DNA of 64,000 bases from Myroides oncorhynchi (GTDB lineage Bacteria > Bacteroidota > Bacteroidia > Flavobacteriales > Flavobacteriaceae). Below are positions 45,923 through 62,739 of the stretch, in pieces. The stretch lies in the NCBI RefSeq assembly GCF_020905415.1, contig NZ_JAJJMP010000001.1, positions 3,793,501 through 3,857,500 of the forward strand, read 5' to 3'. Position 1 is the stretch's first letter. Each line of letters opens with the position of its first letter. The translations under genes and the position numbers were made by a program. A model generated the notes under the pieces. That model was not told where the DNA came from. It saw nothing but the letters and a program-made list of their open reading frames with translations, and ran no database searches.

Positions 45923-46834
45923 TTACTTAGATATTTTATCAATAAGATTAGTAACCCCTAGTTCTTCTAATTTCTTCACTATCCATTTGTCTAACTGTTT
46001 GATAGGATACATCACCCACATCGCAAATACAAAAGGAAATGTCAAAGTAGTCCATCCATACTTAATCATAAAAATATCAAAGTAAGTAGATATTATCACG
46101 CTAATTAGCACATACATCCCTGCTCTAACCTTATCCTCTCCCATAGCAATACCACACAGAACAGCATTAAAACTAAAAACTCCCTCGTTAATTAACGCAT
46201 TAGAGGCATGACTACTATGCGAAATATAGACACTTACGATAACTGCCACAAAACCATATAGAGCCTGAATAGGTCGACTGATAAATACGCCTAAAAAGAA
46301 GACTACTCCCGCAACAAAGCTTCCTTGAAACAATACCTGTCCAAAAGCATGTCCCTGAATCAAAAAATCGTCTAACGCATCTATGTCAACAAAATGCTCA
46401 GGTACAGAGCGAATAGCCAAATCAGGTATACTCAAGATAAATAAAGATACCCAAGTAAAAATCACAAAGGGAAAAGTATACGCTGGCAATTCTCGTTTAA
46501 TCGCCCATCCCATAATAATAGTAGATAGTATAGAGGATATAATCATTAGAACATATACCCATATACTTGGTTCGAAATAAAACATCAAAGCCACACCTAT
46601 CAGACAGGCATTAAATCCAAATAATCCGTTCTCAATATCTTGACGATCAAAGCACATTAACTTGGCTGTAAGAATAGCTACTATATTACACAGTGCCGCA
46701 GCTACTGCCATCTCTGTAGAGTCATAATATATCGCCCCTAAGAATAGAAGTCCTGTTATCGCATTTGCCTGTAACATAATCTGTCCGAAGCCTCTAAAGA
46801 ATGCTTTAATACAGTGGACTGTTAGCTCTTTCAT
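45923..46834 (-). CDS. Urea transporter (UT/Yut family)
   Basis: 303 residues from Met at 46834 (an upstream Met at 46867 would add 11 polar residues). About ten transmembrane helices in two homologous halves, with GQIMLQANAITGLLFL in the first and the matching GQVLFQGSFVAGVVFFLG in the second, the signature of urea channels. It follows ureD directly and provides urea to the cytosolic urease. Expected to be part of the urease operon. Confidence 0.88.
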   Translation of the reverse strand: MKELTVHCIKAFFRGFGQIMLQANAITGLLFLGAIYYDSTEMAVAAALCNIVAILTAKLMCFDRQDIENGLFGFNACLIGVALMFYFEPSIWVYVLMIISSILSTIIMGWAIKRELPAYTFPFVIFTWVSLFILSIPDLAIRSVPEHFVDIDALDDFLIQGHAFGQVLFQGSFVAGVVFFLGVFISRPIQALYGFVAVIVSVYISHSSHASNALINEGVFSFNAVLCGIAMGEDKVRAGMYVLISVIISTYFDIFMIKYGWTTLTFPFVFAMWVMYPIKQLDKWIVKKLEELGVTNLIDKISK

Positions 46835-46878
46835 ATTTTCTTTTTTTTTGAGTTTATAATTTTGCAATCAAAGAGAGG

Positions 46879-47667
46879 TTATAAGAACAACTCTTCCCAT
46901 AGCTTCTGTTGAATGGTTTGAAATATCGTGAATAGCTTCTCTGCTCCTTGGCCTAGTACGCGAATCATAAAGCCATCTCCCTCTAATTCACTAATCCCAA
47001 ATGCAATGTTAGGCATCTCACCGAACTGCTTGTGGAAGTATTCTATATAATCTAATACCCCTATACGAGCTGTGTTATAATAGATTAAAGTTCCCTGATG
47101 TGTGAAGCCTTCTAAGATACCAATCCCTTGTATAGGCATTAAGTCGGGCTGTAACAGCACATTGTCTTTAACCTGTAGTTTGCCCTCTACATAGATCTCA
47201 GTCAGATTCTGAAAGTGATTATAGGCAAACTCTTCTCCTGAGAGCTTACGTCCACAGGTAATGATATCTGATAACAAGAAGTGACTATCTTCCTTCATAT
47301 CCACTCTATTATGGCTTATAAAGGTAGAAGAGCTCTGGGGTACTACAGGATGTGGCACATAGGCAAAGGCACTTCCCTTCTCCATATGAATCAGCGTGGT
47401 CTGCATAGACTTGTTTTTCATATGAAATAGCCTCTGATAAGCCTGCGTCTGCAACTGTAGTTTAGTCTGCTCTGCTAGACGAATAGAGATGCGGTGATCA
47501 TCGTTATCTAACAGTCCTGGTGAAGAACTCATAATCATCAGATAAGCTGCCTTATCTCGCTTATATTGCCCTACGGGTACTATTCTAAAAGGTTGAGTAA
47601 CGTAAGCATCCTTTAGGTAAGATACCCCTTGACGTTGCTCAATTTTAATATCTAAAGATGAAATCAT
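46879..47667 (-). CDS. ureD: Urease accessory protein UreD (UreH)
   Basis: 262 residues matching the UreD pattern: LLDNDDHRISIRLAEQTKLQLQTQAYQRLFHM early on, HPVVPQSSSTF and ITCGRKLSGEEFAYNHF in the middle. UreD forms the UreD-UreF-UreG complex that loads nickel into apo-urease. It starts 1 base after ureG, so they are translationally coupled. Placed last of the accessory genes, before the urea transporter. Confidence 0.93.
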   Translation of the reverse strand: MISSLDIKIEQRQGVSYLKDAYVTQPFRIVPVGQYKRDKAAYLMIMSSSPGLLDNDDHRISIRLAEQTKLQLQTQAYQRLFHMKNKSMQTTLIHMEKGSAFAYVPHPVVPQSSSTFISHNRVDMKEDSHFLLSDIITCGRKLSGEEFAYNHFQNLTEIYVEGKLQVKDNVLLQPDLMPIQGIGILEGFTHQGTLIYYNTARIGVLDYIEYFHKQFGEMPNIAFGISELEGDGFMIRVLGQGAEKLFTIFQTIQQKLWEELFL

Positions 47668-47668
47668 A

Positions 47669-48307
47669 TTATCTCAATAAGTTTGGTTCGTCAATATCTT
47701 CTAACAAAGCATATTTCTTAATCCAACCTACGATATCTTCTAATCCCTCTCCTGTCTTTAAGTTAGAGAATAAGAAGGGTGCTCCCTTGCGCACACGTCT
47801 AGCATCTGTCTCCATTACATTTAGATCTGCTCCTACATAAGGAGCTAAGTCCATCTTGTTAATTAATAACAAGTCTGATCTCGTGATCGCAGGCCCACCT
47901 TTACTTGGCATCTTCTCTCCCTCTGCTACATCAAGTACGAAGATGGTGATATCTGCTAAGTCAGGGCTGAACGTAGAGGATAGGTTATCCCCTCCACTCT
48001 CGATAAAGATTAGTTCTAGGTTAGGGAAGCGATGTGCTAGCTCCTCTACAGCCTCTAGGTTCATACTTGCATCTTCGCGTATGGCTGTATGAGGACATCC
48101 TCCTGTCTCTACACCGATAATTCTATCTTTCGCTAATAAGCTGTTCTTAGCCATAAACTCAGCATCTACACGAGTGTAAATATCATTAGTGATAACTGCC
48201 AAGTCATACTCGTTTAACAGTCTTCGGCTCAAACGTTCTAATAGGGCTGTCTTACCTGATCCGACAGGTCCTCCTACTCCTATTTTGATATATTTTCTAT
48301 CTTCCAT
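47669..48307 (-). CDS. ureG: Urease accessory GTPase UreG
   Basis: 212 residues with P-loop GGPVGSGKT (8-16), the metal-binding Cys-Pro-His motif in ETGGCPHTA (~68-76), [13 protein letters not shown], and the NKMD guanine-recognition motif. UreG couples GTP hydrolysis to nickel delivery. It lies between ureF and ureD, separated by 12 bases and 1 base respectively. Confidence 0.96.
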
Positions 48308-48319: not shown

Positions 48320-49012
48320 TTATGATAAGTATATTCTTGAATAAAGGCGTTCGTGTTGCATACATCGAATATCAAACCCCACATTACACAGCCCGATAAG
48401 ACTTCTATCCATATCTAAACTCTCTTGACTGAGTTGGAGCAAATCATCGTGTAAATAATACAAGATATCTTGACCATCTAGCTGTCCTAAGGGAACTAGC
48501 TTCACGGCATTAGTCACCATACCTATAGCGGCGTTATAATAATATGCATGCATAGCTTCAACTAAAGGTACTTTCATTACTGCGGCGAAGAGTCCATACA
48601 TAATACAATAGTGACTATATACTTCTTTTTGCTTGATTAATTCTCCCCAAGCTTGTACGATAGACTCTTCACTGGTATATCGACTAAATATCTTATATAG
48701 ACGCACCCCTAGCTTCTGACTACCTTGTCTTATTTCCCTTGGCCCTTTTAGAGCATTACACTCCTGAGCTAACAAGACTAGCTCTTCTATATTCCCTAGC
48801 ATTGTAGCATCATAGGCTAACTTCATCAGTGCAGCATCATTATACTTTAGATTATACCATAGATTATGTCTTACATACTGATCTGCCGAAGCCTTGTCAC
48901 AGACCATTCCGTTCTGTACATACGTCTCTAGACCATTAGAATGGGTATATCCACCGATGGGTAAAGAGGGATCAGATAAATGTAATAACCTACCTAAAAA
49001 TGCTTCTGGCAT
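48320..49012 (-). CDS. ureF: Urease accessory protein UreF
   Basis: 230 residues, mostly helical, beginning LLHLSDPSLPIGGYTHSNGLETYV, which is the UreF family signature, and containing LKGPREIRQGSQKLGVRLYKIF in the middle. It binds UreD and UreG on apo-urease. It follows ureE by 3 bases. Confidence 0.95.
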   Translation of the reverse strand: MPEAFLGRLLHLSDPSLPIGGYTHSNGLETYVQNGMVCDKASADQYVRHNLWYNLKYNDAALMKLAYDATMLGNIEELVLLAQECNALKGPREIRQGSQKLGVRLYKIFSRYTSEESIVQAWGELIKQKEVYSHYCIMYGLFAAVMKVPLVEAMHAYYYNAAIGMVTNAVKLVPLGQLDGQDILYYLHDDLLQLSQESLDMDRSLIGLCNVGFDIRCMQHERLYSRIYLS

Positions 49013-49015: not shown

Positions 49016-49513
49016 TTATAATTTTAATGTTAAACCACCTTTTGGCGGTGTGAATACAAACTTCTTATCTTGCTCAAAGTCAACATTTGCATTCAATGGA
49101 TAGCGCAATTGTCGTTGTTGTATTTCAGGGGAATAACCACTGTTAATCATCCAATCATACATCGTCCTCTCATAAGGCAAACACAAGCTATCTCCCTCTA
49201 CATAAAGAGGCAAATGCTTATTCCCTATTTCATAGGCGACTAATCCCAATGTAAACTTATCTGATATCGTCAAGACAATTGCCTCACAGGGCAAAATAGA
49301 CACTAAGATGACCTTATCCTGCGCTTCATACAGCACATCTCCTTCTCTTAAATATTGTCCTTTACCTAAAAAGCGAATACTGATATCTGTACCGTTAGCA
49401 GTCACTAGACGCTGAATGCGCCTCTGTGTCTGATGCCATTCTATATACAAATAATCAATAGACTGTTTTAACTCTGAAGAAGCACAATTGCGGATTGCTT
49501 TTGTTACTATCAT
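49016..49513 (-). CDS. ureE: Urease nickel chaperone UreE
   Basis: 165 residues with an N-terminal beta domain and a C-terminal metal-binding domain. The conserved His (H100) of the family is seen in YEIGNKHLPLYV. Unlike Klebsiella UreE the C-terminus is not His-rich. It is a paralogue of the protein at 60583-61038, and it is the only gene in the urease cluster separated from its upstream neighbour by a large gap, which is filled by a MITE copy. Confidence 0.93.
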   Translation of the reverse strand: MIVTKAIRNCASSELKQSIDYLYIEWHQTQRRIQRLVTANGTDISIRFLGKGQYLREGDVLYEAQDKVILVSILPCEAIVLTISDKFTLGLVAYEIGNKHLPLYVEGDSLCLPYERTMYDWMINSGYSPEIQQRQLRYPLNANVDFEQDKKFVFTPPKGGLTLKL

Positions 49514-49760: not shown

Positions 49761-51482
49761 TTAAAACAAGAAATATCGTTGTCCCAATGCCACCTCATCG
49801 ATCGGCTGACAAGTAATCTTCTTACCGTCTATACTCACCTCATAGTTCTCAGGGTTAACCGTAATCTCAGGAGTTGCACTATTGTGAATCATATCTGCTT
49901 TAGAGATATTACGACAATTCTTAACTGGTAGAAGTGTTCTAGCTACGCCATATTCTTCTTGTATTCCCTTCTCTAATGATACTTGAGACACGAAGTTAAA
50001 ACAAGTCTGTGTCACTGCCTTACCCAGTCCACCATACATCGTTCTAAGTATGATAGGTTGAGGCGTAGGGATAGATGCGTTGGCATCCCCCATCTTAGAG
50101 GCAGCGATCATTCCTCCTTTTAGGATCATCTCTGGCTTAGCCCCAAATAATGCAGGCTTCCATATCACTAGATCTGCTATCTTACCTGGCTCGATAGAAC
50201 CGATATAGTTAGACACACCATGTGCAATAGCAGGATTAATCGTGTACTTCGCTACATAGCGCTTCGCTCTATAGTTATCATTACCCGTACCTTCATCCTC
50301 AGCTAAGCTACCGATCTGTTTCTTCATCTTATCTGCAGTTTGCCATGTTCTAGTAACTACCTCACCTACACGTCCCATCGCTTGAGAGTCAGAACTCATA
50401 ATACTAAACACACCTTGGTCTTGTAAGATATCTTCCGCAGCTATAGTCTCAGGGCGAATACGAGAATCAGCAAAAGCAACATCCTCCGGGATATCTTTAC
50501 TCAAGTGGTGACATACCATCAGCATATCTAAGTGCTCATCGATGGTGTTCTTGGTAAATGGGCGAGTTGGGTTAGTCGATGCTGGTAGTACATTTGGGTA
50601 CATCGCAGATTTGATAATATCAGGTGCGTGTCCTCCTCCTGCTCCCTCTGTGTGGAAGGTATGAATCACACGACCGTTAATCGCCTGCATCGTATCTTCT
50701 AAGAACCCTCCTTCATTTAAGGTATCTGTGTGTATCGCTACTTGCACATCATACTTATCTGCTACAGATAAGGCTCTGTCTATAGTAGCAGGAGTAGCAC
50801 CCCAATCCTCGTGTATCTTCACTCCTAATGCACCTGCTTCTATCTGCTCGATGATAGGCGCCTCAGAACCTACATTCCCTTTTCCAAAGAATCCGAAGTT
50901 CATCGGCAAGTGATCTACTGCTTGCATCATACGCTTCATTCCCCATTTACCTGGAGTCACCGTAGTGGCATTAGTTCCATCAGCTGGTCCTGTACCTCCA
51001 CCGATCATCGTAGTCACACCACTGTATAAGGCAGTCTCTATCTGCGTAGGGCTGATATAGTGAATGTGCGTGTCTATCCCTCCTGCTGTCACGATATAAC
51101 CTGCAGCTCCATGTACTTCTGTAGAAGCTCCAATAATCATATTAGGCGTCACATCATCCATCGTATCAGGGTTACCTGCTCTACCTACACCTACTATCTT
51201 ACCATCTTTAATACCGATATCTCCTTTGACTATTCCCCAATGGTCGATAATAATCGCTCCTGTAATCACCATATCTAGTACGCCTTCATCACTTAAGTGA
51301 TTAGACGACTGCATCATTCCATCACGCACTGTTTTTCCTCCACCGAACTTGCTTTCATCACCATAGCTAGCGAAGTCTTTCTCTACTTCGATGATTATCT
51401 CTGTATCACCTAAGCGCACTCGATCCCCTACTGTAGGGCCGAAAATAGCACTGTAATTTGCTCTACTTACTTTTAAACTCAT
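49761..51482 (-). CDS. ureC: Urease alpha subunit UreC
   Basis: 573 residues, full length. Nickel ligands of the family align with H139, H141, carbamylated K222 (GVKIHEDWG), H251, H277 and D365; the active-site flap has C324-H325-H326 (MVCHHLSK). It hydrolyses urea to ammonia and carbamate in the cytosol. The ATG overlaps the ureB stop (ATGA), and the coding region ends with the family-typical QRYFLF. A MITE begins immediately after the stop. Confidence 0.98.
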
Positions 51483-51856
51483 AATGCCTTGTTTTTAAAG
51501 TACTGTTTCTCCACTCGTTTCATTGCCTTCGCTTTTGCTTCCTCTGAGATAGTCTCTCCATTGGCTAGATCATTATGTCCGTATACTTTACGCGCACCTG
51601 CATAAGGTACCAAGTCTACTTCCTTCTCTTCTCCTGGCTCAAAACGAACAGCAGTACTTGCGATAATGTTTAGGCGTTTACCAAATGCTGCTGCACGGTC
51701 AAACTCCATCATCTTATTCACTTCAAAGAAGTGATAATGAGACCCTACCTGTATTGGTCTATCTCCTTTATTGACAACTGTAATTGTGGTAATCTCTCTA
51801 CCTTCATTACAGATAATATCTTCGTCTTTAATAAAATACTCTCCTGGTACCATCAC
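51479..51856 (-). CDS. ureB: Urease beta subunit UreB
   Basis: 125 residues, beginning [13 protein letters not shown] with the conserved [11 protein letters not shown] motif (~38-48) and [12 protein letters not shown], then [17 protein letters not shown] separate beta subunit is the usual arrangement in bacteria with three-subunit urease. Start 12 bases after ureA, 4-base overlap with ureC. Confidence 0.97.
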
Positions 51857-51868: not shown

Positions 51869-52171
51869 TTATCGAATAGGGTTATGTACCGTCACTAACT
51901 TGGTACCATCAGGGAATGTAGCTTCTATCTGCACATCGTGGATCATCTCTGCTATCCCATCCATTACATCTTCGCGCGTTAATAACGTCGCGCCATACTG
52001 CATTAAGTCAGCTACTGTTCTTCCGTCTCTAGCCGCTTCAAGTAACTCACTACTGATATAAGCTATCGACTCTGGGTAATTAAGTTTTAACCCTCTAGCC
52101 CTGCGCTTCTTCGCTAGCTCACCAGCTAAGTGCAAAAGCAATTTTTCCGTCTCTCTCGGTAATAAATGCAT
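51869..52171 (-). CDS. ureA: Urease gamma subunit UreA
   Basis: 100 residues, the normal length, beginning [34 protein letters not shown] and containing the conserved [11 protein letters not shown] and [21 protein letters not shown] segments. It is the first gene of the urease structural operon. The region between it and the upstream exported-protein gene contains a terminator, so it probably has its own promoter in 52172-52269. Confidence 0.97.
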
Positions 52172-52292: not shown

Positions 52293-52304
52293 CTTATAGG
52301 TAGA

Positions 52305-52691
52305 TTAAACTAACCCGTGAGGAATCTTTAAGGATTGATACAATAAGTATTTTGCTCTATGCTGTTGTAGATAGGCAGATATCTTTTGTTCTCCTAAAAT
52401 AGGTGTAGTCAAATCTAGATTAAAAACATAAGTAGTAAGGAAGTGTAGTACATCACTTAGATCTAATTTGTCCGTACTGTGATCAGTGTTATCTATAGAG
52501 TTAACTACTTCTACTTCCACCTCAGTCTGACAATAAACTTTACACGCTTCTTTCTTACACATTTGTCCAGGTTTAAAAGAACTCCCTGACAAAACGTAAT
52601 TACCCTCCACCTCTACACGTTGGTTAGCAAATGCTAATCCAAAACGGAAAAGAAAAAAACACAAAACGATAAGTCGAAATAATGCTTTCAT
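52305..52691 (-). CDS. Small exported protein of unknown function, sharing its promoter element with the nickel operon
   Basis: 128 residues with a strong signal peptide (1-~22, ending AFA). The mature part has a Cys/Lys motif (MCKKEACKVYC, ~43-53) and scattered His residues (HSTDKL, DVLHF, QQHR, PHGLV) that could bind metal, but I do not recognise a family. Its promoter carries the same 37-bp element as the hypA operon at the same distance from a -7 box, so it is probably part of the same regulon; a role in nickel handling is inferred from that alone. Confidence 0.65.
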   Translation of the reverse strand: MKALFRLIVLCFFLFRFGLAFANQRVEVEGNYVLSGSSFKPGQMCKKEACKVYCQTEVEVEVVNSIDNTDHSTDKLDLSDVLHFLTTYVFNLDLTTPILGEQKISAYLQQHRAKYLLYQSLKIPHGLV

Positions 52692-52723
52692 AGAAGAGTG
52701 ATACCTTGTTTTTAATTACCTTA

Positions 52724-52787
52724 CAAAGGTAACTTCTATCCCCTGTCACTAATAGCACAAATCTTGACTATACTACCATAAAATAGG
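52724..52787 (-). promoter_or_regulatory. Promoter and putative operator of the 128-residue exported protein gene
   Basis: On the minus strand the -7 box TACCTTTG (52731-52724) is preceded, after exactly 19 bases, by a 37-bp element (52751-52787) matching the one at 62415-62451 at 35 of 37 positions. The element contains CTATT-N9-TATAG (minus strand) and GTGCTATT next to the -33 position. A -33 TTTG is not present at the standard distance, suggesting an activator-dependent promoter or a repressor site. Confidence 0.65.
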
Positions 52788-52854
52788 TAATAGAAGGGAT
52801 GAAGCGTTAAAGTTATGTTTATGTCTTATCTTTATAAACATAAAGCTCACAACG

Positions 52855-53325
52855 ATGAAAACACACAACTATCAAGCTACCATTAAATGGACAGGTAACA
52901 AAGGAACAGGCACAGATAACTATAAAAACTATGAAAGAAATCATACGATTAGCATTGAAAATAAAATAGATATCCTCAGCTCATCTGACCCTGCTTTTAG
53001 AGGAGATAAGACAAAGCACAATCCTGAGGATTTGTTTATTTCTTCTCTGTCTTCATGCCATATGCTGTGGTACTTACACTTCTGTTCTGTAAACAATATT
53101 GTAGTAGTAGAATACACAGATTATGTAACAGGTATAATGATAGAAGAAGGGGATGGTAAAGGTAGATTTATTGAAGTCACACTCCATCCTACTATTGTAG
53201 TCACCTCTACTGAAATGGTACAAAAAGCTAAAGAATTAGACCACAAAGCCAATGAGTATTGCTTCATCGCAAACTCAGTCAACTTTCCTGTTAAACACAG
53301 TCCTACTGTGCTTGTAAGAGAATAA
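52855..53325 (+). CDS. OsmC-family protein
   Basis: 156 residues with NPEDLFISSLSSCHMLWYLHFC (~56-77), the OsmC region carrying the first redox Cys (C68), and a later Cys in ANEYCFIAN. These proteins reduce organic hydroperoxides in the cytosol. It is transcribed divergently from the exported protein gene. Promoter not identified with confidence. Confidence 0.86.
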   Translation: MKTHNYQATIKWTGNKGTGTDNYKNYERNHTISIENKIDILSSSDPAFRGDKTKHNPEDLFISSLSSCHMLWYLHFCSVNNIVVVEYTDYVTGIMIEEGDGKGRFIEVTLHPTIVVTSTEMVQKAKELDHKANEYCFIANSVNFPVKHSPTVLVRE

Positions 53326-53372
53326 ACATACCATTTTTATAAAAGCCTCGTTAGTATAACAAACAAGTCCCT

Positions 53373-54530
53373 ATGCAACCAAACCAGATTAGACTCTTTC
53401 ACTGTCTACTATTATTGATCATAAACGGTCTTAATACATCTATTAGCTATGCTCAAAACACACTTATTGTCAACGACATAGCTAATAAGCACATAGTAGC
53501 TCTTGGAGATGCAAGTCATACTGATTACACTGCTAGTAAACTAAGAGTAGACCTAATTAAAGAACTAGTAGAACAACACAATTTCAAAATCATTGCTCTT
53601 GAATCTAACTTATATGAGGTATATCAAGCTTTTGAACAATACAAAATCATTGACCATATTGAAACAATCAATAGTGCCATTTATTTCAATATGAGAAACA
53701 AACCGCTTAAAGAATTATTTCATTATTTAAGAGAACAGAATGAAAAAGGCAATACAGTCAAAGTAGTTGGGTTTGACTCTGCATTTTCAGGTGACTATTC
53801 AGATAGCGTTTTTACAACATCTATAACAGAAACTCTCAATAATTCCTCACTAAATTGTACATCTATATCACCTAAAGAGTTCGAAAAACACTTTAAAAAC
53901 TTAACTATTACTAATCTAAAAGCATTGTTTCGTACTAAAAAAGATTACAACATTGTCTATGACTATCTTCAATGCTATCTAACACAAATTGAAAGTAATC
54001 CTATATTACAACAAGCTTTAACCAATCTTACAAAGATAATAGATGCTAAAAAAAACAAGGTTAATTCAGACAATCATAGAGACCAATTGATGTTTGAGAA
54101 TATCCTAACCCTAAAGAAACTATATCCCAACGAAAAAATGATTTTATTTGGGTCCTCTACTCATTTTATAAGAAAACCGAAAGCCATTGAATCTTCTTTT
54201 ATGCAAAACAATAGAATCACTTTAGGCTCTTTGTTAGCCGACAAGTTTAAAGATGATTATGCATTCATCGCTTACACAGCCATTAACGGAAATACTCTAG
54301 GGTTTTATGGCAAGAAACACAAACTGAAAGATGCTATACCAAATTCTATAGAACAAATAATTACTCTAAACCATAACACAGAAACACCTTTCTATTACCT
54401 TAGTAAAGATGATAAAGTATTTACTCAAGTAGAATATACTCGTTTTTTAGGGAATACATTCCAAAAAATGAATATTGAAGAAATAATTGATGGTTTAGTA
54501 TTAATTAGAGATAACAATACTGAAAACTAG
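53373..54530 (+). CDS. Exported erythromycin-esterase homologue
   Basis: 385 residues with a signal peptide (cleavage near SYAQ). The family pattern is present: IVALGDASHTDYTASKLRVDLIKELVEQ (~40-68), ALESNLYEV, HRDQLMFENI and FGSSTHFIRKP (the second active-site His). In Ere proteins the first motif is GExxH; here it is GDASH, with Asp replacing Glu. It is exported, which is unusual for resistance enzymes of this group, so a role in macrolide hydrolysis is not certain. It follows osmC by 47 bases. Confidence 0.7.
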   Translation: MQPNQIRLFHCLLLLIINGLNTSISYAQNTLIVNDIANKHIVALGDASHTDYTASKLRVDLIKELVEQHNFKIIALESNLYEVYQAFEQYKIIDHIETINSAIYFNMRNKPLKELFHYLREQNEKGNTVKVVGFDSAFSGDYSDSVFTTSITETLNNSSLNCTSISPKEFEKHFKNLTITNLKALFRTKKDYNIVYDYLQCYLTQIESNPILQQALTNLTKIIDAKKNKVNSDNHRDQLMFENILTLKKLYPNEKMILFGSSTHFIRKPKAIESSFMQNNRITLGSLLADKFKDDYAFIAYTAINGNTLGFYGKKHKLKDAIPNSIEQIITLNHNTETPFYYLSKDDKVFTQVEYTRFLGNTFQKMNIEEIIDGLVLIRDNNTEN

Positions 54531-54692
54531 CGACAATTAGTATCCCTTTTGCGGTAGGTTGGGCAAAACCTGCATATTCAGAGAAGTATACCTGCTCAAA
54601 GCACTCCTGTCAGCAACAACACCTCAAGGACTCTGCTCGCATTCCGCAATCTATTAGTTAGGCAACAGGCTACTCATAAGATATGGCTATAA
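54531..54692. other. Unexplained, comparatively GC-rich intergenic segment
   Basis: After the erythromycin-esterase homologue the sequence becomes visibly richer in G and C and contains TTGCGG (about 54559) and CCGCAA (about 54645) as outer inverted repeats, an inner TAGGTT...AACCTG hairpin, and a GTTAGGC sequence near its end. It does not encode a recognisable protein. It could be a structured RNA or a remnant of a mobile element. Confidence 0.3.
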
Positions 54693-54730
54693 AAAAACCT
54701 CAACAAAGATTAACTCCGTTGAGGTTTTTA
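54693..54730 (-). terminator. Terminator of the nickel-operon TonB receptor gene
   Basis: AAAAACCTCAAC and GTTGAGGTTTTT pair around a loop of about 13 bases, with a T-run following on the minus strand, 8 bases after the stop codon. Confidence 0.85.
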
Positions 54731-54737
54731 TACTTAT

Positions 54738-57170
54738 CTAAAAGTGATATCCTAAAGACACCATCACATTACGAGGTGCCCCTGCGAATACTCTCGTATA
54801 ATCAAACCCTCCAAGGAAGTAATACTTATCGAAGATATTATTCACATTCACCGCTAGTTTAAACTTGTCTAAGTGGTAATACACCGCTGCATTAGCAGTC
54901 ATATAAGCAGGTAAGTATCCCCACTGAGCATTGCCCTGAGCATCTTTACCTACGCTTTCACTTAGTCTGCGCTGATCTACATAGTAAGCACCTGCTCCGA
55001 ATCCTAATCCTTTAAGCGCTGTATCAGAGAAGACATACTTTAACCATATACTTCCTGAGTTTTTAGGAGCCCCAGGTAATAACTGTCCCTCTTCTGAGGC
55101 GATTGCTGACTCTTTTACTTCAGTGTCATTATAGGTGTAGTTCGCCATAATCTGAAACTCTTTAGTGATCTGCCCTCTCATATCTAGTTCTACTCCTTGA
55201 GAGATTACTCTACCTGACTGTCTGTACACAGGTAGTCCTGCTTCTGTCAATTGACCTGTACCAATAAGCATATCTCTTCGCTCTATTCTAAATACAGACA
55301 AGTCCATTTGCAATTGATTGTCAAAGAAGCCTGTCTTAAACCCTGTTTCTACTTGGAAACTCTTCTCTGATTTGAACGCACTGTCTGCACCATAGTCTTT
55401 ATAGTTAGCTACGAAATTAGCCGCCACAGGTACATACCCCTGAGAATAACTAGCGAAGTAGTTAATCTTATCATTGATTAGATAAGTAAGTCCCACTCTA
55501 GGTAACCAAGCATTTTGAGTAGCTGTAAAAGGAACCTTAGTATCAGTACTCTCTGACTTATAACTCTCGTGTCTAAGTCCTAATACCATCTTTAAGCGCT
55601 CTCCTACAGAGATCTGATCTTGGATATAAACTCCTGTACTTTTATATGGACTCATAAACGGATATTGTGTATTTGATCTCCATACATAGTTAGTAATATC
55701 CGCCCCTTGGTAAACAGGGTTATTCATATCAAAAGTCAAGGCTACTACTTCTCCGTTCTCTTTCTTGCTACGAGCCTCGCGTTGGTAACTATTCTTATCA
55801 CCCTTATACTGTGCATAGTCTACTCCTACTACGATATGGTGATCTATGTTCTTACCATATTTATCCCATTTTAAGTATGACACGAAGTTATCTGTGTACT
55901 CCTTACCGTGACGGTCAAAGAAACGCAAGTTAACCACTGTGTTCTGAGGTGGATTAGCATAGGTATTTAACGTTCTATGTTCGTTTAAGTCCTCCTCATA
56001 GATCGACTTCATATAGCTCACGTGTAGGTTCACATTATCTACGATGCGTTGCGTTAAACGTCCACTAAGTGTTGTAGTCTTTGTCTTAAAGTAATCTGAT
56101 GGTTGGCTAAGCGTAAAGGTACGTGGCAAGGCATATAAATCCCCTCCTTTAGTACTCATTCCTCTGTCTAAATATCCATTGAATTGGTCAAATACCAAGT
56201 CAACATCAAACGTCGTTCCCTCCATTGGTTTAAAGGTAAACGAAGGTGCAACTGCAAAGTTCTTGCGGTTATTAATATCTCTAAACGTCTTAGAACTTTC
56301 ATACCCTGCGTTTAAACGATAGAGTATTTTCTTATCCTTATCAAGAGGTCCTCCTACATCAACAGTCGTTCTCAATGTCTCAAAGCTACCTGCCGAGAAG
56401 TTAATCACACCCTTGTGCTCTTCTAATGGTTTCTTCGTTACCATATTAATCGTTCCCCCGGGTGCAATATCTCCAAATAGAGAAGCTCCTGGTCCTTTTA
56501 AGACTTCGATACTCTCAAAGTTGATGGTCATCGGAGAACGATAATAACTCTCTCCAAAACCATAAGCAGAACGCATACCGTTGATTAATCTAATCCCGTT
56601 GTCATACCCACTTTTAAAACCGCGTATCACGAACTCATCATACACAGATGCCTGTGTTACACCTGCCAAATCAGGGATTACATCTGCTACTTGGAACGCT
56701 TGTTTATCTTCCATTAGCTCACTAGAGACAATAGAGATAGACTGAGGCAAATCTTTTATCTTCCCTGTATACTTTCCTCCTAACACCGTTGAGTTGGACA
56801 AATAAGAGTTGTTTCTTCTAGAAGTAACGACTATTTCTTCTAATTCATTAGGGTTCTCCTCTAACTTAATGACAATCCCCTTAGCCTCTTTATAATTCTC
56901 TTCATTCAGCTCTACGAACTTCTGCTTATACCCCATAGCATTAATCTGTAATAACAGCGGAAACGCTACTTGATCAACAGTAGTAAACTCCCCTTTCACA
57001 TCGCTCTCTTCTACGTTATCGTTGCCAATCATCACTACAGCATACGCCACAGGATTATTCTTTTCGCCAACTAATCGACCAATCACTCGATGAGAAGTCT
57101 GAGCAATAGTTAAGTAAGGAAGTAATAGCGAGATAGCTATTATTCCTGATTTATGTAAATATGTTTTCAT
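54738..57170 (-). CDS. TonB-dependent outer membrane receptor, siderophore/metallophore type
   Basis: 810 residues: signal peptide (cleavage near AQT at 23-25), carboxypeptidase-regulatory domain (~28-108), a TonB-box-like LEEIVVTSRR, plug (~125-245; PQSISIVSSELM, EFVIRGFKSG, VLKGPGASLFGDIAPGGTINMVTKKP) and a 22-strand-type barrel ending in YHF. The plug matches the ferric-siderophore receptor group. It is the last gene of an operon that begins with hypA-hypB, so the cargo is probably nickel or a nickel chelate rather than iron; this is inferred from context. Confidence 0.9.
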   Translation of the reverse strand: MKTYLHKSGIIAISLLLPYLTIAQTSHRVIGRLVGEKNNPVAYAVVMIGNDNVEESDVKGEFTTVDQVAFPLLLQINAMGYKQKFVELNEENYKEAKGIVIKLEENPNELEEIVVTSRRNNSYLSNSTVLGGKYTGKIKDLPQSISIVSSELMEDKQAFQVADVIPDLAGVTQASVYDEFVIRGFKSGYDNGIRLINGMRSAYGFGESYYRSPMTINFESIEVLKGPGASLFGDIAPGGTINMVTKKPLEEHKGVINFSAGSFETLRTTVDVGGPLDKDKKILYRLNAGYESSKTFRDINNRKNFAVAPSFTFKPMEGTTFDVDLVFDQFNGYLDRGMSTKGGDLYALPRTFTLSQPSDYFKTKTTTLSGRLTQRIVDNVNLHVSYMKSIYEEDLNEHRTLNTYANPPQNTVVNLRFFDRHGKEYTDNFVSYLKWDKYGKNIDHHIVVGVDYAQYKGDKNSYQREARSKKENGEVVALTFDMNNPVYQGADITNYVWRSNTQYPFMSPYKSTGVYIQDQISVGERLKMVLGLRHESYKSESTDTKVPFTATQNAWLPRVGLTYLINDKINYFASYSQGYVPVAANFVANYKDYGADSAFKSEKSFQVETGFKTGFFDNQLQMDLSVFRIERRDMLIGTGQLTEAGLPVYRQSGRVISQGVELDMRGQITKEFQIMANYTYNDTEVKESAIASEEGQLLPGAPKNSGSIWLKYVFSDTALKGLGFGAGAYYVDQRRLSESVGKDAQGNAQWGYLPAYMTANAAVYYHLDKFKLAVNVNNIFDKYYFLGGFDYTRVFAGAPRNVMVSLGYHF

Positions 57171-57186
57171 TTGTAATGTTTTTTAA

Positions 57187-57221
57187 AGTTTACTCGTCAC
57201 GGATTGCAAATCCGCGACAGC
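57187..57221. repeat. REP-like palindrome, copy 1
   Basis: A 35-bp sequence with a GTCRCGGATT-TGC-AATCCGTGAC core (minus strand), also present at 60542-60576 with only two differences, both preserved as G.U pairs. It sits between the GNAT gene and the TonB receptor start (16 bases before the ATG). It resembles palindromes mobilised by REP-associated transposases. Confidence 0.75.
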
Positions 57222-57238
57222 GAGATTATACTGTGTAT

Positions 57239-57739
57239 TTACAACTGTGCTTCCATGTGAAGTGTAGTAAATCCACCATCTATAGAGGTAGTCACCAATT
57301 CAAAGCCTTGTTTTTGCCAATACTCAAACGCACCTGTTAAGAAAGGATGTGTATGTAAGTATAGTATCTCTATCCCTTTCTGCTTCGCTACTTCTAATAA
57401 GGCGTTAAACAATTTGGTTGCTAATCCTGATCTTCTATAGGCAGGCTCTACGAATAGACGAGCGACTTCTACTGTGCGTTGATCTTTATAATCAAGGTAA
57501 TCAAATCGGTAATCATAAGGCATCATCCCGATAACTCCTACTATAATATCTTCTTTATCTCTAGCGCATAAGAATGCTCCACTATCTGAAGTGATATAGG
57601 TAGAGGTAAACTCAACAATATCTTGAGGAACTTTATCCGGATCTAACATAGGAAATAACCCTATTCGAAATGCTTTGACGTATTGTTTAATACACTCCGC
57701 TTGACTCTCCTCTACTTTGCTAATTTGAATATCTTCCAT
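57239..57739 (-). CDS. GNAT-family N-acetyltransferase
   Basis: 166 residues with the acetyl-CoA binding motif LFVEPAYRRSGLATKLFNALLEVA (~92-115) followed by the C-terminal LYLHTHPFLTGAFEYWQKQGFELV. Substrate unknown. It is embedded in the nickel operon between the ATPase and the TonB receptor gene, which suggests it could modify a metallophore or a protein of the pathway, but this is only positional. Confidence 0.85.
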   Translation of the reverse strand: MEDIQISKVEESQAECIKQYVKAFRIGLFPMLDPDKVPQDIVEFTSTYITSDSGAFLCARDKEDIIVGVIGMMPYDYRFDYLDYKDQRTVEVARLFVEPAYRRSGLATKLFNALLEVAKQKGIEILYLHTHPFLTGAFEYWQKQGFELVTTSIDGGFTTLHMEAQL

Positions 57740-57747
57740 AAACGAAC

Positions 57748-58506
57748 TTATATTAAAGGCATAAACATCACCTTCCCTTGATTATCTATTCTATGCAACG
57801 GCAGTTGATATGTATCTTCTAAAAGCTTGTGCAGCTCCTCTCCTTGGATAGCTTGAATATCTACCAATTGCTTATTTTGCATCAAGTAAAAACGCTCTCC
57901 ATACATAAACGCAAGGTTAGGATCGTGCATCACACATAAGATGGTAGTGCCTTCTTCAGCAAGTTGTTTAATACATTTGAGCACTGCTACTTGATAGTGC
58001 AAATCCAAGTGATTCGTTGGTTCGTCTAACATCAGCACTTCAGGCTTCTGTACTAACACTCGACATAATAAGACTAGCTGACGTTCTCCTCCTGAAAGGG
58101 ACGTATAAGGCTTGTCTATCAAATGCAATAACTGAAAGCGAGATAATATATCGACTACCTCTTGAAAATCCTGTTCTGCAGGAGCAAACTTCGCAAAAGA
58201 AGCCCTCCCTGTTAGAATAACCTCTTTCACTGTAAAGGGAAAAGTAGTCTGATGAAACTGATTTAAGAACCCTATGCGGATATGCTGTTCTTTGCCTAGT
58301 TTAATCGTTTTGCGTTCTTGTCCATCAAAGCACACCTTGCCGTGATACTTCTTTTCTAAACCTGCTAGGATATTAAACATCGTAGACTTCCCACTGCCAT
58401 TTCGACCAAGGATAATAGATAGCTTCCCTTTCTCGAAGCTTGCATTAACATTATCTAGTACAATCTCTTTGTCATAAGAAAATGACAATTCACTTATCTC
58501 AATCAT
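57748..58506 (-). CDS. ABC transporter ATPase, FecE/BtuD-like, of the metal importer
   Basis: 252 residues with Walker A GRNGSGKST (~34-42), Q-loop FLNQF, signature LSGGERQLVLL (~137-147), Walker B VLMLDEPTNHLDLH and an H-loop in VMHDPN. It belongs to the iron-siderophore/cobalamin importer group. It starts 10 bases after the permease stop in the hypAB operon. Confidence 0.93.
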   Translation of the reverse strand: MIEISELSFSYDKEIVLDNVNASFEKGKLSIILGRNGSGKSTMFNILAGLEKKYHGKVCFDGQERKTIKLGKEQHIRIGFLNQFHQTTFPFTVKEVILTGRASFAKFAPAEQDFQEVVDILSRFQLLHLIDKPYTSLSGGERQLVLLCRVLVQKPEVLMLDEPTNHLDLHYQVAVLKCIKQLAEEGTTILCVMHDPNLAFMYGERFYLMQNKQLVDIQAIQGEELHKLLEDTYQLPLHRIDNQGKVMFMPLI

Positions 58507-58516
58507 CTGATCTGTC

Positions 58517-59515
58517 TTATGCGTTCCAACTCGTTAAACTCTTCTTCATCAAATAAATAAATATAGGGGCACCTATAATCATCGTAAACACGCCTACTGG
58601 AATCTCAAAAGGCATTACAGCACGAGAGAAATCATCTATCAACAATAGAAAAGAACCTCCTATACTGATATTAGCCCAAACGCCAATATTGTTATTCGGT
58701 CCAAACACCATTCTACTCATATGCGGTACTATTAATCCAAATAAGCTAACCACTCCTACTGCTGCTACTGAAGAAGCTGTAATCATCGTCGCAACGCAAA
58801 TAAGAACAAGCTTTAAATACTTAGGGTTCACCCCTACGGCTAAAGCTTCATTATCTCCTAAAGACAAAAGGTTAAGTTTCCAACGCAAGAGGATGATAAC
58901 AACTAGACCTACTACAATAGGCACAAAGGCTGTCTGTACTTTAGCCCAAGAGGCTGTGTGTAGGTTACCCATCGTCCATTGTACTATCGCTTGCAACTTA
59001 TACGGGTCACTCATATATTGCAACAAAGTCAACAAGGCCGTAAATACTCCTGATACGATAATCCCCGATAAGACCATACTCACAATAGAAGTACGACTAC
59101 CCGCATAGGATACCGTGTAGGTTAAGGCTACTGCACATATCCCAAAAGCAAAAGCAGATAGATTAATAGAGATAAAAGGGAATAACATCGCTAAGGCGGC
59201 TCCGAAGGCAGCTCCTGAAGAGATACCAAGTGTAAACGGATCTACGATAGGGTTGCGAAAGATAGCTTGTAGAACTCCTCCTGATACCGCTAGTGAAGCT
59301 CCTACCATAAAGGTTAAGATAATACGAGGCAGACGCACTTTCCACAGAATAGTCTCCACAGGATCTGTAGTGATACCACTATGACTAATCGCCTTAATGA
59401 TATAAGCTACTAATTCGCTTGGAGATAGATTACCTGTCGTCCCGAGCATCAGCGAACCTATTAATAACAAGATAGGTCCTATCCATAATAACGCAACCTT
59501 TATGCTATATCTCAT
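58517..59515 (-). CDS. FecCD/BtuC-family ABC permease of the metal importer
   Basis: 332 residues, about ten transmembrane helices, with the hallmarks WKVRLPRIILTFMVGASLAVSGGVLQAIFRNPIVDPFTLGISSGAAFGA (family signature, ~53-105) and the late GVVSLFGLIVPHMSRMVFG loop that contacts the ATPase. It pairs with the ATPase downstream and the lipoprotein upstream to import a metal chelate into the cytosol. Confidence 0.93.
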   Translation of the reverse strand: MRYSIKVALLWIGPILLLIGSLMLGTTGNLSPSELVAYIIKAISHSGITTDPVETILWKVRLPRIILTFMVGASLAVSGGVLQAIFRNPIVDPFTLGISSGAAFGAALAMLFPFISINLSAFAFGICAVALTYTVSYAGSRTSIVSMVLSGIIVSGVFTALLTLLQYMSDPYKLQAIVQWTMGNLHTASWAKVQTAFVPIVVGLVVIILLRWKLNLLSLGDNEALAVGVNPKYLKLVLICVATMITASSVAAVGVVSLFGLIVPHMSRMVFGPNNNIGVWANISIGGSFLLLIDDFSRAVMPFEIPVGVFTMIIGAPIFIYLMKKSLTSWNA

Positions 59516-59530
59516 CTATTTATCTTACTT

Positions 59531-60532
59531 CTATTTCTTTGTATTATACAATATATTCATTGCTTCGTCTAAGTCTGCTTTTAAAGCGTCCTCAGTATAA
59601 GTAGGATAACTCCATTGGCGTACTTGCTTAGCAAATAATAAGAACTTCACCGTATGAGGATCATATAAGAATGAAGGAGTCATCACCTTTACTTGCTTAT
59701 TCTCTACAGCAGGTAGATTAGATAACTCGCTTAATCCATACACATCACTCGCACTTGAGTTCCAAAGCAGAATAATATCAGGATTCCACTTGTACAGCAT
59801 CTCAGCACCGATATTAGGCGCTTGCATCTCTAGTGGGCAGGCATTTACCGCTCCTGATAATGTGATCGCCATATCCATCAGTGTTCCCTTACCTGAAGTA
59901 GAAAGTACACGACCTTTAGACCAAGCGTAATATACTTTCTTTGGACTCTCTACTTTCGTCGCTTCCATTTCAGCTACTTCTTTTTCGATATAGGTAGTGA
60001 TTATATTAGCACGTTCAGCTTTACCTAGCAGTGTTCCTATTCCCTTTAATTCACTGATAATCCCTTTCTGATCTTCACTCGCTATGGTAAATACAGCGAT
60101 ACCCAAGTCCTCTAACTGAGCTACCGCTTCTGCATCTTGGTCAAATGTGATGACCAAATCAGGTTGTAACCCTATAATAGCTTCCACATTAGACATACCA
60201 CCGCCGAAAGTAGGTGTTGCTATTTCTTTCTTTGCCATACGGCTATCTAAAGTAGATAGGAAAGCAAATGTATCTTCATTCAAGTAGATCTGTTGTGGAA
60301 TACCCACTAAAGTCTGTTGCGCATCTAACATAAACACATCGTCTACTAACGCTTCGTATAATGCCACTACTCTAGTCGCAGGCTTAGCTAAACGAACTTC
60401 TTTACCACGACTGTCTATCGCCACAAGTTCTGTTGATGTTGGTTCTGTCGATTGAGTTGTTGCTGTACTTTGTTTACACGATTGTAAGAATACAAGTGCA
60501 AACAATACAGGTAATAAATATCTTAATTTCAT
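59531..60532 (-). CDS. Metal/metallophore-binding lipoprotein (FecB/BtuF-like), ABC importer
   Basis: 333 residues with a lipoprotein signal (LQSC, Cys19) and the two-lobe class III fold: VVALYEALVDDVFML, TFGGGMSNVEAIIGLQPDLVITFD, and LYKWNPDIILLWNSSASDVYGLSELSNLPAVENKQVKVMTP. Co-operonic with HypAB/UreE2, so nickel chelates are the likely ligand. It begins 50 bases after the UreE2 stop, a gap that carries a REP-like palindrome. Confidence 0.9.
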   Translation of the reverse strand: MKLRYLLPVLFALVFLQSCKQSTATTQSTEPTSTELVAIDSRGKEVRLAKPATRVVALYEALVDDVFMLDAQQTLVGIPQQIYLNEDTFAFLSTLDSRMAKKEIATPTFGGGMSNVEAIIGLQPDLVITFDQDAEAVAQLEDLGIAVFTIASEDQKGIISELKGIGTLLGKAERANIITTYIEKEVAEMEATKVESPKKVYYAWSKGRVLSTSGKGTLMDMAITLSGAVNACPLEMQAPNIGAEMLYKWNPDIILLWNSSASDVYGLSELSNLPAVENKQVKVMTPSFLYDPHTVKFLLFAKQVRQWSYPTYTEDALKADLDEAMNILYNTKK

Positions 60533-60541
60533 AATTCTTAG

Positions 60542-60576
60542 AGTTTACTCGTCACAGATTGCAAATCCGTGACAGC
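60542..60576. repeat. REP-like palindrome, copy 2
   Basis: The same 35-bp element as at 57187-57221, in the same orientation, lying just upstream of the binding-protein start codon (9 bases). The palindromic core again pairs fully, with one G.U. Confidence 0.75.
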
Positions 60577-60582
60577 AGTTTC

Positions 60583-61038
60583 CTATTTACTATATTTCTT
60601 TTTAAGAAGATGTTGCGTAAACAGCTGTTGTTTTTCTAAAACGATCATTGTTCCAAACTTGGCAACTAACTGTTCATACAGGCTCCCATCATAAGGTACA
60701 GATAACGTATTAGAAGACTTGTCTACAAATACAGGCAAGTGTCTATTGCCGATATAATAGGTAAAGTCAGCAACCTCTTCTGCCTTGTCAGCGATAAACT
60801 TGATCGCTAAGGTTGATTTAATAATCAGTTGAGCGATTACTTCTCCTTGACTATAAAGCAAGTCTGCTTGTTGCCAATCTCTGTTTTGTTCTTTGAGCAA
60901 ATGAAGTTCAACTCCCAAAGTAGTTTTCCGGTGAAACAAGTGCTTCTGTGTTTCGAACCATTCGATCTCGAATGTATCTACTACATCTGAAACTACATTT
61001 TGAAGTTGAACATCATCTATATAAATTGTTTGTTGCAT
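60583..61038 (-). CDS. UreE paralogue in the nickel-uptake operon
   Basis: 151 residues with the same layout as UreE (49016-49513), including the conserved metal-ligand His at residue 100 in YYIGNRHLPVFV. It begins MQQTIYIDDVQLQNVV and its C-terminus has one extra His (TQHLLKKKYSK). A second UreE copy next to hypAB and a metal importer suggests a chaperone specialised for nickel entering through this system; this is inferred. It starts 7 bases after hypB. Confidence 0.82.
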   Translation of the reverse strand: MQQTIYIDDVQLQNVVSDVVDTFEIEWFETQKHLFHRKTTLGVELHLLKEQNRDWQQADLLYSQGEVIAQLIIKSTLAIKFIADKAEEVADFTYYIGNRHLPVFVDKSSNTLSVPYDGSLYEQLVAKFGTMIVLEKQQLFTQHLLKKKYSK

Positions 61039-61045
61039 AGTGTGC

Positions 61046-61756
61046 CTACTCCGCTAGTTTAGCTTTCTTAGCTTTCACACGTTCTTTTAGCCACTCACAC
61101 CACTGATCTATTCCCTCTCCGTTTGTAGTACTGATAGGTAATACTTCTATATTTGGATTAACCTCTCTAGCATCTTTAGTTACATTCTCTACTGTGAACG
61201 GCACATAAGGCAATAAGTCTATTTTAGATACTAACATTAACTCACTAGTTAAGAACATACGTGGATACTTCTTAGGCTTGTCATCTCCTTCTGTAGTCGC
61301 TAATAACGTCACTCTGTAATCTTCCCCTAAGTCAAAAGCAGATGGACATAGTAAGTTCCCTACATTCTCTATAAATAATACATCTGTTCCTTCTAGATCG
61401 ATATGGTCTAATGCCTGTAAGATCATTTGTGCTTCGATATGGCACATCCCCCCTGTTACGATCTGAAGTGCGTTTAACCCCACTTCTTTCATACGTACAG
61501 CATCTCTATCCGTCTCAGGATCTCCTACTAATACAGATATATTTAACTCATTAGATAGGCGCTTACCTGTTTCTTGCATTAAAGTAGTCTTACCAGAACC
61601 AGGAGAAGAACACACATTAATGACGCAGATATTTTTTAGACGTTCTCTAATCGCATTTGCCACGAAGTCATTTGCTTTTAATAAGTGTAAAGTAGTGTTA
61701 TCACATTGTAGCGAACCTACGCGATTTCCTAAACTTTTTGGATTACTTGTTGACAT
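61046..61756 (-). CDS. hypB: Nickel-handling GTPase HypB
   Basis: 236 residues with P-loop SSPGSGKTTL (~50-60), VGDPETDRDAVRM, the metal-site segment GGMCHIEAQMI (Cys-His of the HypB G-domain), SKIDLLPY (guanine specificity) and a C-terminal Lys-rich tail. It hydrolyses GTP to deliver nickel. Its N-terminus lacks a His-rich stretch. No hydrogenase genes are seen in the window, so urease is the probable client. Follows hypA by 13 bases. Confidence 0.93.
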   Translation of the reverse strand: MSTSNPKSLGNRVGSLQCDNTTLHLLKANDFVANAIRERLKNICVINVCSSPGSGKTTLMQETGKRLSNELNISVLVGDPETDRDAVRMKEVGLNALQIVTGGMCHIEAQMILQALDHIDLEGTDVLFIENVGNLLCPSAFDLGEDYRVTLLATTEGDDKPKKYPRMFLTSELMLVSKIDLLPYVPFTVENVTKDAREVNPNIEVLPISTTNGEGIDQWCEWLKERVKAKKAKLAE

Positions 61757-61769
61757 AAGTATGGGTGAT

Positions 61770-62117
61770 TTATAATGATTGTTTAAATATTACTTTTGAT
61801 ATGTATAATTCGTTGCCCTGCACAATATCAGCCGATGGAGTACCACATGGACAGACGAATCGGTGGTACTCCACCTTAAAGTCTTTATCACAGCTGTGAC
61901 AGTGTGCAATGATTTCGTTGACCACTACTTCTAATTCCATATCTCTATAAATTAGATTATCGATGATAAACGCATCAAATGCATTCTGTATCAACACAGG
62001 CTGTACATTAGATAACAACCCTGCTGTAACCTGTATTTTCTGAATATCTTCTACTTTAGCCTCGTAGTGCTCCTCTAGGGTAGAAAAGATATCTTTCACG
62101 ATTGACAATTCATGCAT
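61770..62117 (-). CDS. hypA: Nickel metallochaperone HypA
   Basis: 115 residues beginning with the nickel-binding MHE (His2) and carrying a zinc site C73-x2-C76 and C89-x-C91 (the second pair is CPC, one residue shorter than the usual C-x2-C). It forms the head of the nickel operon and partners HypB. In Helicobacter, HypA and HypB are needed for urease maturation, a precedent for this arrangement. Confidence 0.94.
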   Translation of the reverse strand: MHELSIVKDIFSTLEEHYEAKVEDIQKIQVTAGLLSNVQPVLIQNAFDAFIIDNLIYRDMELEVVVNEIIAHCHSCDKDFKVEYHRFVCPCGTPSADIVQGNELYISKVIFKQSL

Positions 62118-62220
62118 CGCTTGATCTTTTTTAAATTCTATAAAATAAATTCTACTTTCTTAGACCTTCTTTATCTGTCTACAACGTGAAGTGATTAGTT
62201 GCAGTCAAACTTCTTAATTC
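62118..62220. other. Proximal leader of the hypA operon
   Basis: AT-rich leader between the structured element and the hypA start. It contains a weak GAAGT...ACTTC hairpin; no second gene is seen. Confidence 0.4.
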
Positions 62221-62332
62221 ATTAGTGTGGATTCTCACTGAGGAAGTCAGTACTATTCTTATCGGTTCGAATAGACACTAATTACACTTTTCTTTACTAA
62301 ATGCTTTAAAGTGGCATTCTCAATAAAAGTGT
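62221..62332 (-). ncRNA. Predicted structured leader RNA of the hypA nickel operon
   Basis: On the minus strand, the 5' hairpin at 62332-62284 pairs ACACTTTT with AAAAGTGT and an inner GAATGC/GCATTT. It is followed by a three-way junction at 62282-62221: P1 is ATTAGTGT/ACACTAAT (8 bp), P2 CTATTC/GAATAG (6 bp, 10-base loop) and P3 ACTGA/TCAGT (5 bp, 5-base loop), with GAGAATCC joining P3 to P1. It lies between the putative start site and hypA. A riboswitch or other cis regulator is inferred; I know no named family matching it. Confidence 0.4.
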
Positions 62333-62387
62333 TTATCGACAACAACAAACAAGCTATACATCAGCTATATCCGCATTATCAACGGCA

Positions 62388-62451
62388 CAAATGTAGAAAC
62401 AGTTCCGCTACTAGAATAGCACTAATCTTGACTATTCTACCATAAAATAGG
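62388..62451 (-). promoter_or_regulatory. Promoter and putative operator of the hypA nickel operon
   Basis: The -7 box TACATTTG (62395-62388, minus strand) is preceded after exactly 19 bases by a 37-bp element (62415-62451) that is shared with the promoter at 52724-52787. The implied start site lies about 265 bases upstream of hypA, giving a long leader. The element includes CTATT-N9-AATAG and AATAG-N12-CTATT arrangements. Confidence 0.65.
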
Positions 62452-62706: not shown

Positions 62707-62710
62707 AAAA

Positions 62711-62736
62711 AGCCGAATATCTGACGACACCCGACT
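62711..62736 (-). terminator. Terminator after the hypothetical membrane protein gene
   Basis: AGTCGGGTGTC and GATATTCGGCT form an 11-bp stem with four G.U pairs and a 4-base loop, followed by T6 on the minus strand, 4 bases after the stop codon. Confidence 0.75.
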
Positions 62737-62739
62737 CTA

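Follow-up and report, generated by a model that had tools for sequence, protein, structure and literature searches.

NikR couples urease with nickel supply, AraC-type proteins recognise tandem sites made of two direct half-sites 21 bp apart, and Bacteroidota promoters follow a -33/-7 consensus. Here we describe, in a 64-kb stretch of the Myroides oncorhynchi genome (contig NZ_JAJJMP010000001.1, positions 3,793,501 to 3,857,500; hereafter the window, with coordinates counted from its first base), a 37-bp element that stands before both a urease operon and a hypA/nickel-uptake operon, and we argue, with a probability of roughly 0.83, that it serves as operator for the AraC-family regulator whose gene lies within the urease operon, most likely activating the two operons together (Table 1). 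The locus resembles NikR systems in tying urease to nickel supply and differs from them in that the M. oncorhynchi genome has no NikR match and that neither the operator nor the likely regulator belongs to the NikR family. With the tandem operators of AraC and RhaS (araI1-I2) the element shares two direct half-sites 21 bp apart that abut the core promoter, whereas it takes the place of a -33 box rather than of a sigma-70 -35 and has a half-site sequence of its own.

The closest regulator by family and gene position is UreR, an AraC/XylS protein that switches on urease genes in the presence of urea in Proteus, Providencia and other bacteria, including plasmid-borne enterobacterial loci (PMC7156557). 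As in those loci, an AraC-family regulator gene adjoins the urease genes and its product is a likely activator; in Myroides, however, this gene is the last of its operon, the -7 box of the promoter is of the Bacteroidota kind, and the element recurs before the hypA/nickel-import operon. By analogy with UreR, urea would be a likelier inducer than nickel. No ureR was present in the one plasmid urease stretch examined. Urease genes are listed for Myroides odoratimimus in a paper from whose text the word 'AraC' is absent (PMC6391281), and a search by title and abstract, with subscription journals mostly outside its coverage, returned no paper on an AraC-type urease regulator of Bacteroidota.

The element, its candidate promoters and its proposed regulator in Myroides

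The two copies of the element are identical at 35 of 37 positions, with two differing positions, and on the minus strand each is followed by 19 unrelated nucleotides and then by TACCTTTG on the urease side or TACATTTG on the hypA side. Both of these copies thus have the Bacteroidota TAnnTTTG -7 box at a fixed distance, and the promoter-side end of the element, where CTATT is found, occupies the place of the -33 box. Direct comparison upholds what the original prediction, made from the sequence of the window, had reported: the 35/37 match, the 19-bp distance of both copies to their -7 boxes across unrelated spacers, and an operator-like site before two promoters. No third copy at up to 3 mismatches occurs in the window (100 shuffles: 0) or in the 4,156,454-base genome (2 copies in total; reversed-pattern control 0), so the proposed two-target set stands genome-wide, as does the statement that no large duplication is involved, flanks and spacers being unrelated. 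Rfam at E<=1 gave two matches across 44000-64000, neither overlapping an element, and when 44500-52800 was scanned for promoters and terminators with a sigma-70-type model, which does not extend to Bacteroidota promoters, sites were no commoner than in shuffles.

The second target had been taken for a lone small exported protein, a view that has to be abandoned: the small-protein gene shares the strand of ureA, stops ~134 nt short of it and opens the urease operon, in which it is followed by ureABCEFGD, a urea transporter and, last, the AraC regulator. The accompanying claim that no copy lies upstream of ureA holds for the ~134-nt gap directly before that gene and fails for the operon, whose first gene the element precedes. 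On the other side, the element heads a row of hypA, hypB, a UreE-like gene, a metal ATP-binding cassette (ABC) transporter, a GNAT gene and a TonB receptor. Strand and spacing suggest co-transcription within each row, and the neighbouring genes point to nickel as the probable substrate of the ABC transporter. Because it stands before the urease operon and before an operon that resembles a nickel supply, the element appears to couple urease with nickel supply.

We followed the element through 398 genus genomes, an even draw from a larger group in which close relatives are Myroides by their named records. HypA matches at E<=1e-20 were found in 14 of them, the window's genome included, and the surroundings of hypA were mapped for genes and elements in the other 13. 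The degenerate element (<=3 mismatches) occurs in nine of the 398, with exactly two copies in each (reversed-pattern control 0), and the excess of copies that would have marked a dispersed repeat was seen neither in the whole genome nor across the genus. Both copies lie before the hypA and ure operons on one map in the window's genome and seven others, the same operons following them in these relatives, and the ninth carrier (G319) has its two elements on two separate contigs. TAnnTTTG lies downstream of all 18 elements, at 19 nt (16) or 20 nt (2), with differing spacers. Weaker sites are present in G018 (M. guanonis record L156; 28/37 before hypA, 14/17 before ureA) and in G258 (24/37 and 25/37, the second without an exact -7 box). 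Three genomes with urease and hypA, namely G194 (HypA 84%), G285 (54%) and G093 (40%), are without a regulator match at E<=1e-60, and in the stretches fetched from them the element was not found at 24/37 or above.

The regulator ends in a double helix-turn-helix (HTH; HTH_18 72.4 bits, HTH_AraC 56.3 bits), as expected of an AraC/XylS protein, and no NCBIfam equivalog scores above its cut-off. Its AlphaFold2 model (predicted local distance difference test, pLDDT, 81.7; predicted template modelling score, pTM, 0.59), with PDB matches that include ToxT, Rns, CsvR, RhaR and AraC, predicts an N-terminal beta domain and the AraC/ToxT/Rns fold. A scan of named genomes with regulator alignment A1 (13 sequences) yielded 124 relatives, and in 79 of the best 80 of these 124 at least three urease genes adjoin the regulator, the one miss (L149) arising because the locus is cut by a contig end. 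Within the genus, the regulator is matched at E<=1e-60 in 45 of the 398 genomes, and 13 of the 15 matches below 60% identity outside the hypA set have urease genes in the same stretch. One genome, G281, has, in addition to a standard copy, a 41% regulator paralogue (L098) beside a second, diverged urease (ureA 51%).

Seventeen further stretches were added for reading upstream of ureA. There, 10 genomes (G017, G365, G080, G132, G111, G388, G355, G224, G239, G328) have a perfect 16-nt core, which is present at 15/16 in G140 and at 12/16 in G126 and G397 and was not found upstream of ureA in G412, G257, G144, G327, G197 and G266. We screened 62 genomes for a 17-nt core (<=1 mismatch), choosing 31 that carry a regulator of at least 45% and 31 others (among them G004, with a 39% paralogue). 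The core was found in 23, of which 22 belong to the 31 regulator carriers; the reversed control gave one match (G319).

Two element classes and two regulator clades beyond the genus

We compared 71 ureA upstream regions, drawn from the loci of the best 80 regulators and from 30 loci fetched through ureA (7 loci twice, 64 distinct). The core of the class to which the window's element belongs (class 1) reaches at least 13/17 in 49 of the 71 regions (42 of the 64 distinct) and in none of the same 71 when reversed, where the maximum is 12; TAnnTTTG follows it at 21 nt in 18 regions and at 22 nt in 16, 34 of the 49 together. A second class of element, TGTCACGATTTTGAACATTTTAAATGATCTTTTTGATAG, lies just upstream of the small gene, with a TAnnTTTA-like box ~20 nt on in most cases. 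It scores 33-39 of 39 in 19 regions and at most 24 in all others and in the reversed control, a count that describes rather than tests the class, and lends the operator reading correspondingly less, because the consensus was drawn from the same regions. No region among the 71 has both classes. In a regulator tree of 79 of the 80 rows (L204 left out), a deep split separates clades of 25 and 54, with 18/18 class-2 rows in the former and 41/42 class-1 rows in the latter, so that element class and regulator clade co-segregate. The HTH sequences differ correspondingly, class 1 having ...QWINEISILHSQ...SPSYFTR... or variants and class 2 ...QWINEIDINYSK...TASHFTQ... or variants.

The half-site layout was read from 19 class-1 sites, hand-picked by genus. 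Comparison of their proximal half, GATTTGTGCT, with the sequence lying exactly 21 nt upstream gives a mean identity of 5.74/10 (next best shift 3.79), and two direct half-sites ~21 bp apart by a promoter, the arrangement of AraC/XylS operators, are found in the 19 picked sites.

The degenerate core (<=1 mismatch) was also sought in eight Sphingobacterium and four Chitinophaga genomes. All eight of the former have two sites ~8 kb apart, before the urease genes and before hypA-hypB, and three of them (G453, G454, G458) have a third exact site. In L269 and L283 the third site stands before genes for a small exported protein and for a membrane protein that has a His-rich loop and scores above the cut-off of no Pfam family; a relative, recognised by eye, is encoded in a stretch beside Chitinophaga urease genes (L322), and the membrane protein is therefore a putative nickel transporter. 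The urease site is present in all four Chitinophaga genomes.

Several further sites were noted in passing. Four Flavobacterium regulators (L208, L213, L223, L227) group with Chryseobacterium and the corresponding ureA upstream regions (L255-L258) are class-2, perhaps reflecting joint transfer of regulator and operator. Upstream of the urease genes of Sphingobacterium psychroaquaticum, two cores lie in opposite orientation 38 bp apart (L157:18437 and 18475). A one-mismatch core, TAATACAAATCATGAAT, is common to five Sphingobacterium genomes (G453-G456, G458) at another place, and a variant site with one mismatch, TAGTACAAATCAGGAAT, occurs in two Chitinophaga genomes (L272, L273, L324), preceding in L324 a 260-aa protein that ends in PRYILYSQLQIPYDNN.

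A model of joint activation and its rivals

Our observations are best accommodated by a model where two regulator subunits would bind two half-sites in the same direction, 21 bp apart, and the regulator would dock directly upstream of the Bacteroidota -7 box, in the place of the -33 box. Once bound, it would most likely activate the urease operon and the hypA/nickel-uptake operon jointly, such that the enzyme, the import of both urea and nickel, and the metallochaperones would increase simultaneously, and because its gene sits in the urease operon the regulator would also boost its own level.

Clustered genes travel together, for which reason co-occurrence alone is no proof of binding, and a different regulator might read the element, with the AraC linkage a mere consequence of cluster co-inheritance; the regulator tree indeed mixes genera, as cluster transfer would. 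We regard this as improbable, since the element class changes with the HTH of the neighbouring AraC regulator, the tandem form is as expected of AraC proteins, and the element was not found in the three genomes that have hypA and urease without the regulator. It is very unlikely, in our estimate, that the element instead serves as operator for a repressor of the NikR or Fur family that responds to nickel or iron: each operon has to do with nickel or a nickel enzyme, but the element follows the presence and the clade of the AraC regulator and its repeat is direct, 21 bp apart. The NikR-type regulator suggested in the original prediction has found no candidate, NikR_C (PF08753) giving 0 matches in the genome in a search that was positive in 5 of 14 control genomes; no search for Fur-family proteins was made. 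The 35/37 identity within 10 kb might also suggest a dispersed repeat or the remnant of a recent duplication, a notion rendered close to negligible by the two copies per genome in nine carriers, by the same targets with unrelated flanks across genera and by the near-fixed distance to the -7 box.

A number of observations weigh against the AraC-operator model. Binding, activation rather than repression, and operon structure are predictions from sequence; related genomes are not independent, and element class and regulator clade may both follow shared descent. Both copies in the window have a weak distal half-site. Among the 31 regulator-bearing genus genomes, nine have no core within one mismatch; a stray one-mismatch core occurs in G030, outside the regulator set, and the sole core match of G018 (one mismatch) lies inside an open reading frame (ORF) that resembles a cation antiporter by eye, a coding-region match that we count as chance. 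Two regulator paralogues, L094 (44%) and L099 (39%), have no urease genes in their 20-kb stretches, the reading frame of L094 being interrupted by stops. Beyond the genus, 15 of the 49 regions with a core lack an exact TAnnTTTG at 21-22 nt; 13 of these 15 are Chitinophaga reads in which a near form of the box can be seen by eye at roughly that position. Three of the 64 distinct loci carry neither element: L171, L233 and, with an upstream sequence of just 302 nt, L207. The class-1 row outside its clade is Riemerella L215 (14/17, no box, 471 nt upstream only), a match that is probably chance because the L215 regulator groups with class 2. Finally, the stray matches include nine with one mismatch in the Sphingobacterium genomes and a further exact one in Chitinophaga, which lies inside a polyketide-synthase-like ORF (L271).

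The small first-gene family and the surrounding features

The small protein encoded first in the urease operon has no Pfam and no NCBIfam match. In the Sphingobacterium loci examined, all three kinds of site have as their first long downstream ORF one for a protein of 124-134 aa whose start is hydrophobic and whose C-terminal motif resembles PRYILFHSLKIP. A motif-bearing ORF, defined by a regular expression, is present in 50 of the 71 ureA upstream regions (45 of 64 distinct), those of Chryseobacterium and Elizabethkingia included, and none of 25 antisense ORFs fits the expression. No small-protein ORF of this kind stands in the window's hypA operon. In a family search with alignment A2, 57 of 482 candidate proteins scored E<=0.01, and none of the 57 has a Pfam domain or function name. 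As judged from their sequences, these proteins are an unannotated family of ~125 residues with a variable middle and a conserved C-terminal motif, which occurs first in the urease operons of Myroides, Flavobacterium, Sphingobacterium, Chitinophaga, Chryseobacterium and others, and also in the hypA operon and a transporter operon of Sphingobacterium. Across three sequence sets (of 10, 7 and 3 members), the ratio of nonsynonymous to synonymous substitution rates is 0.05-0.07 in the last 16 codons versus 0.21-0.50 in the middle, and the C-terminus is therefore under protein-level selection. The structure model of the small protein is of low confidence (pLDDT 58.5, pTM 0.24).

SecM and VemP are regulatory nascent chains, and the family is like them in its small exported first gene, variable middle and conserved C-terminal motif, whereas a shared downstream hairpin was not found for the small protein and arrest is purely hypothetical here. 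Candidate roles are a periplasmic factor or a regulatory nascent chain. The signal-like N-terminus, the variable middle of nearly constant length and the C-terminal motif would suit a second, post-transcriptional layer, in which a new family of regulatory nascent chains or export-coupled sensors would use the motif to stall or time the ribosome by export or nickel status and so set translation of ureA, hypA or the transporter, an idea that we offer tentatively and with the odds against it. An attenuator between the small gene and ureA was considered and rejected, hairpins occurring in 17 of 53 intergenic stretches (5 loci twice) versus 13.5 expected from shuffles. A hairpin at 52269-52295 (-) lies directly 3' of the small-gene stop, with differing hairpins at the same place in the Myroides relatives L151 and L152 only. 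A DNA pattern for the C-terminal motif, run on 20 genomes, was likewise discarded as too permissive, reversed controls also matching, and of its many matches away from the first gene of the urease operon, none of the six examined (L319-L322, L325, L326) closes a small ORF with the motif.

Table 1. Elements, candidate promoter boxes and genes of the two operons in the window
Feature	Position	Strand	Basis or remark
37-bp element (putative class-1 operator), urease operon	52751..52787	-	17-bp promoter-proximal core 52753-52769
TACCTTTG, candidate -7 box of urease operon	52724..52731	-	19 nt from element
Small exported protein, 128 aa, urease operon first gene, ends ...AKYLLYQSLKIPHGLV	52305..52691	-	family evidence
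ureA	51869..52171	-	gene order conserved in relatives
ureB	51479..51856	-	gene order conserved in relatives
ureC	49761..51482	-	gene order conserved in relatives
ureE	49016..49513	-	gene order
ureF	48320..49012	-	gene order
ureG	47669..48307	-	gene order
ureD	46879..47667	-	Pfam UreD
Urea transporter	45923..46867	-	Pfam UT
AraC-family regulator, 295 aa, proposed element-binding protein	44955..45842	-	Pfam, fold, linkage
37-bp element, hypA/nickel operon	62415..62451	-	core 62417-62433
TACATTTG, candidate -7 box of hypA operon	62388..62395	-	19 nt from element
hypA	61770..62117	-	domain scan
hypB	61046..61756	-	TIGR00073, 243 bits, cut-off 121
Second UreE-like protein	60583..61038	-	below curated cut-offs
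Periplasmic binding protein, ABC transporter	59531..60532	-	Peripla_BP_2
FecCD-type permease	58517..59515	-	named by eye; conserved order
ABC transporter ATPase	57748..58506	-	named by eye; conserved order
GNAT acetyltransferase	57239..57739	-	domain scan
TonB-dependent receptor	54738..57170	-	domain scan

Three features of the surrounding sequence are recorded for completeness. The hypA leader (62118-62390, -), ~270 nt from the -7 box to hypA, has no ORF of at least 30 codons and includes a near-invariant block, TTTAGTAAAGAAAAGT, common to nine Myroides (alignment A3). Antisense to ureC, an Rfam match to 5_ureB_sRNA at 51032-51331 (+; 51.8 bits, gathering 40) may merely reflect conserved urease coding sequence. 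Between the operons, 53373-54530 (+) encodes an erythromycin-esterase-family protein with a signal-like start that scores far under the cut-off of the EreA model.

Overall, the regulation of urease in Bacteroidota gains a concrete and testable regulator and operator, and the arrangement suggests one switch that raises a nickel enzyme together with its nickel supply. The two element classes that track two regulator clades are a natural system for changes in DNA recognition by AraC proteins, and the unannotated first-gene family, with its conserved C-terminal motif, is a direct experimental target.

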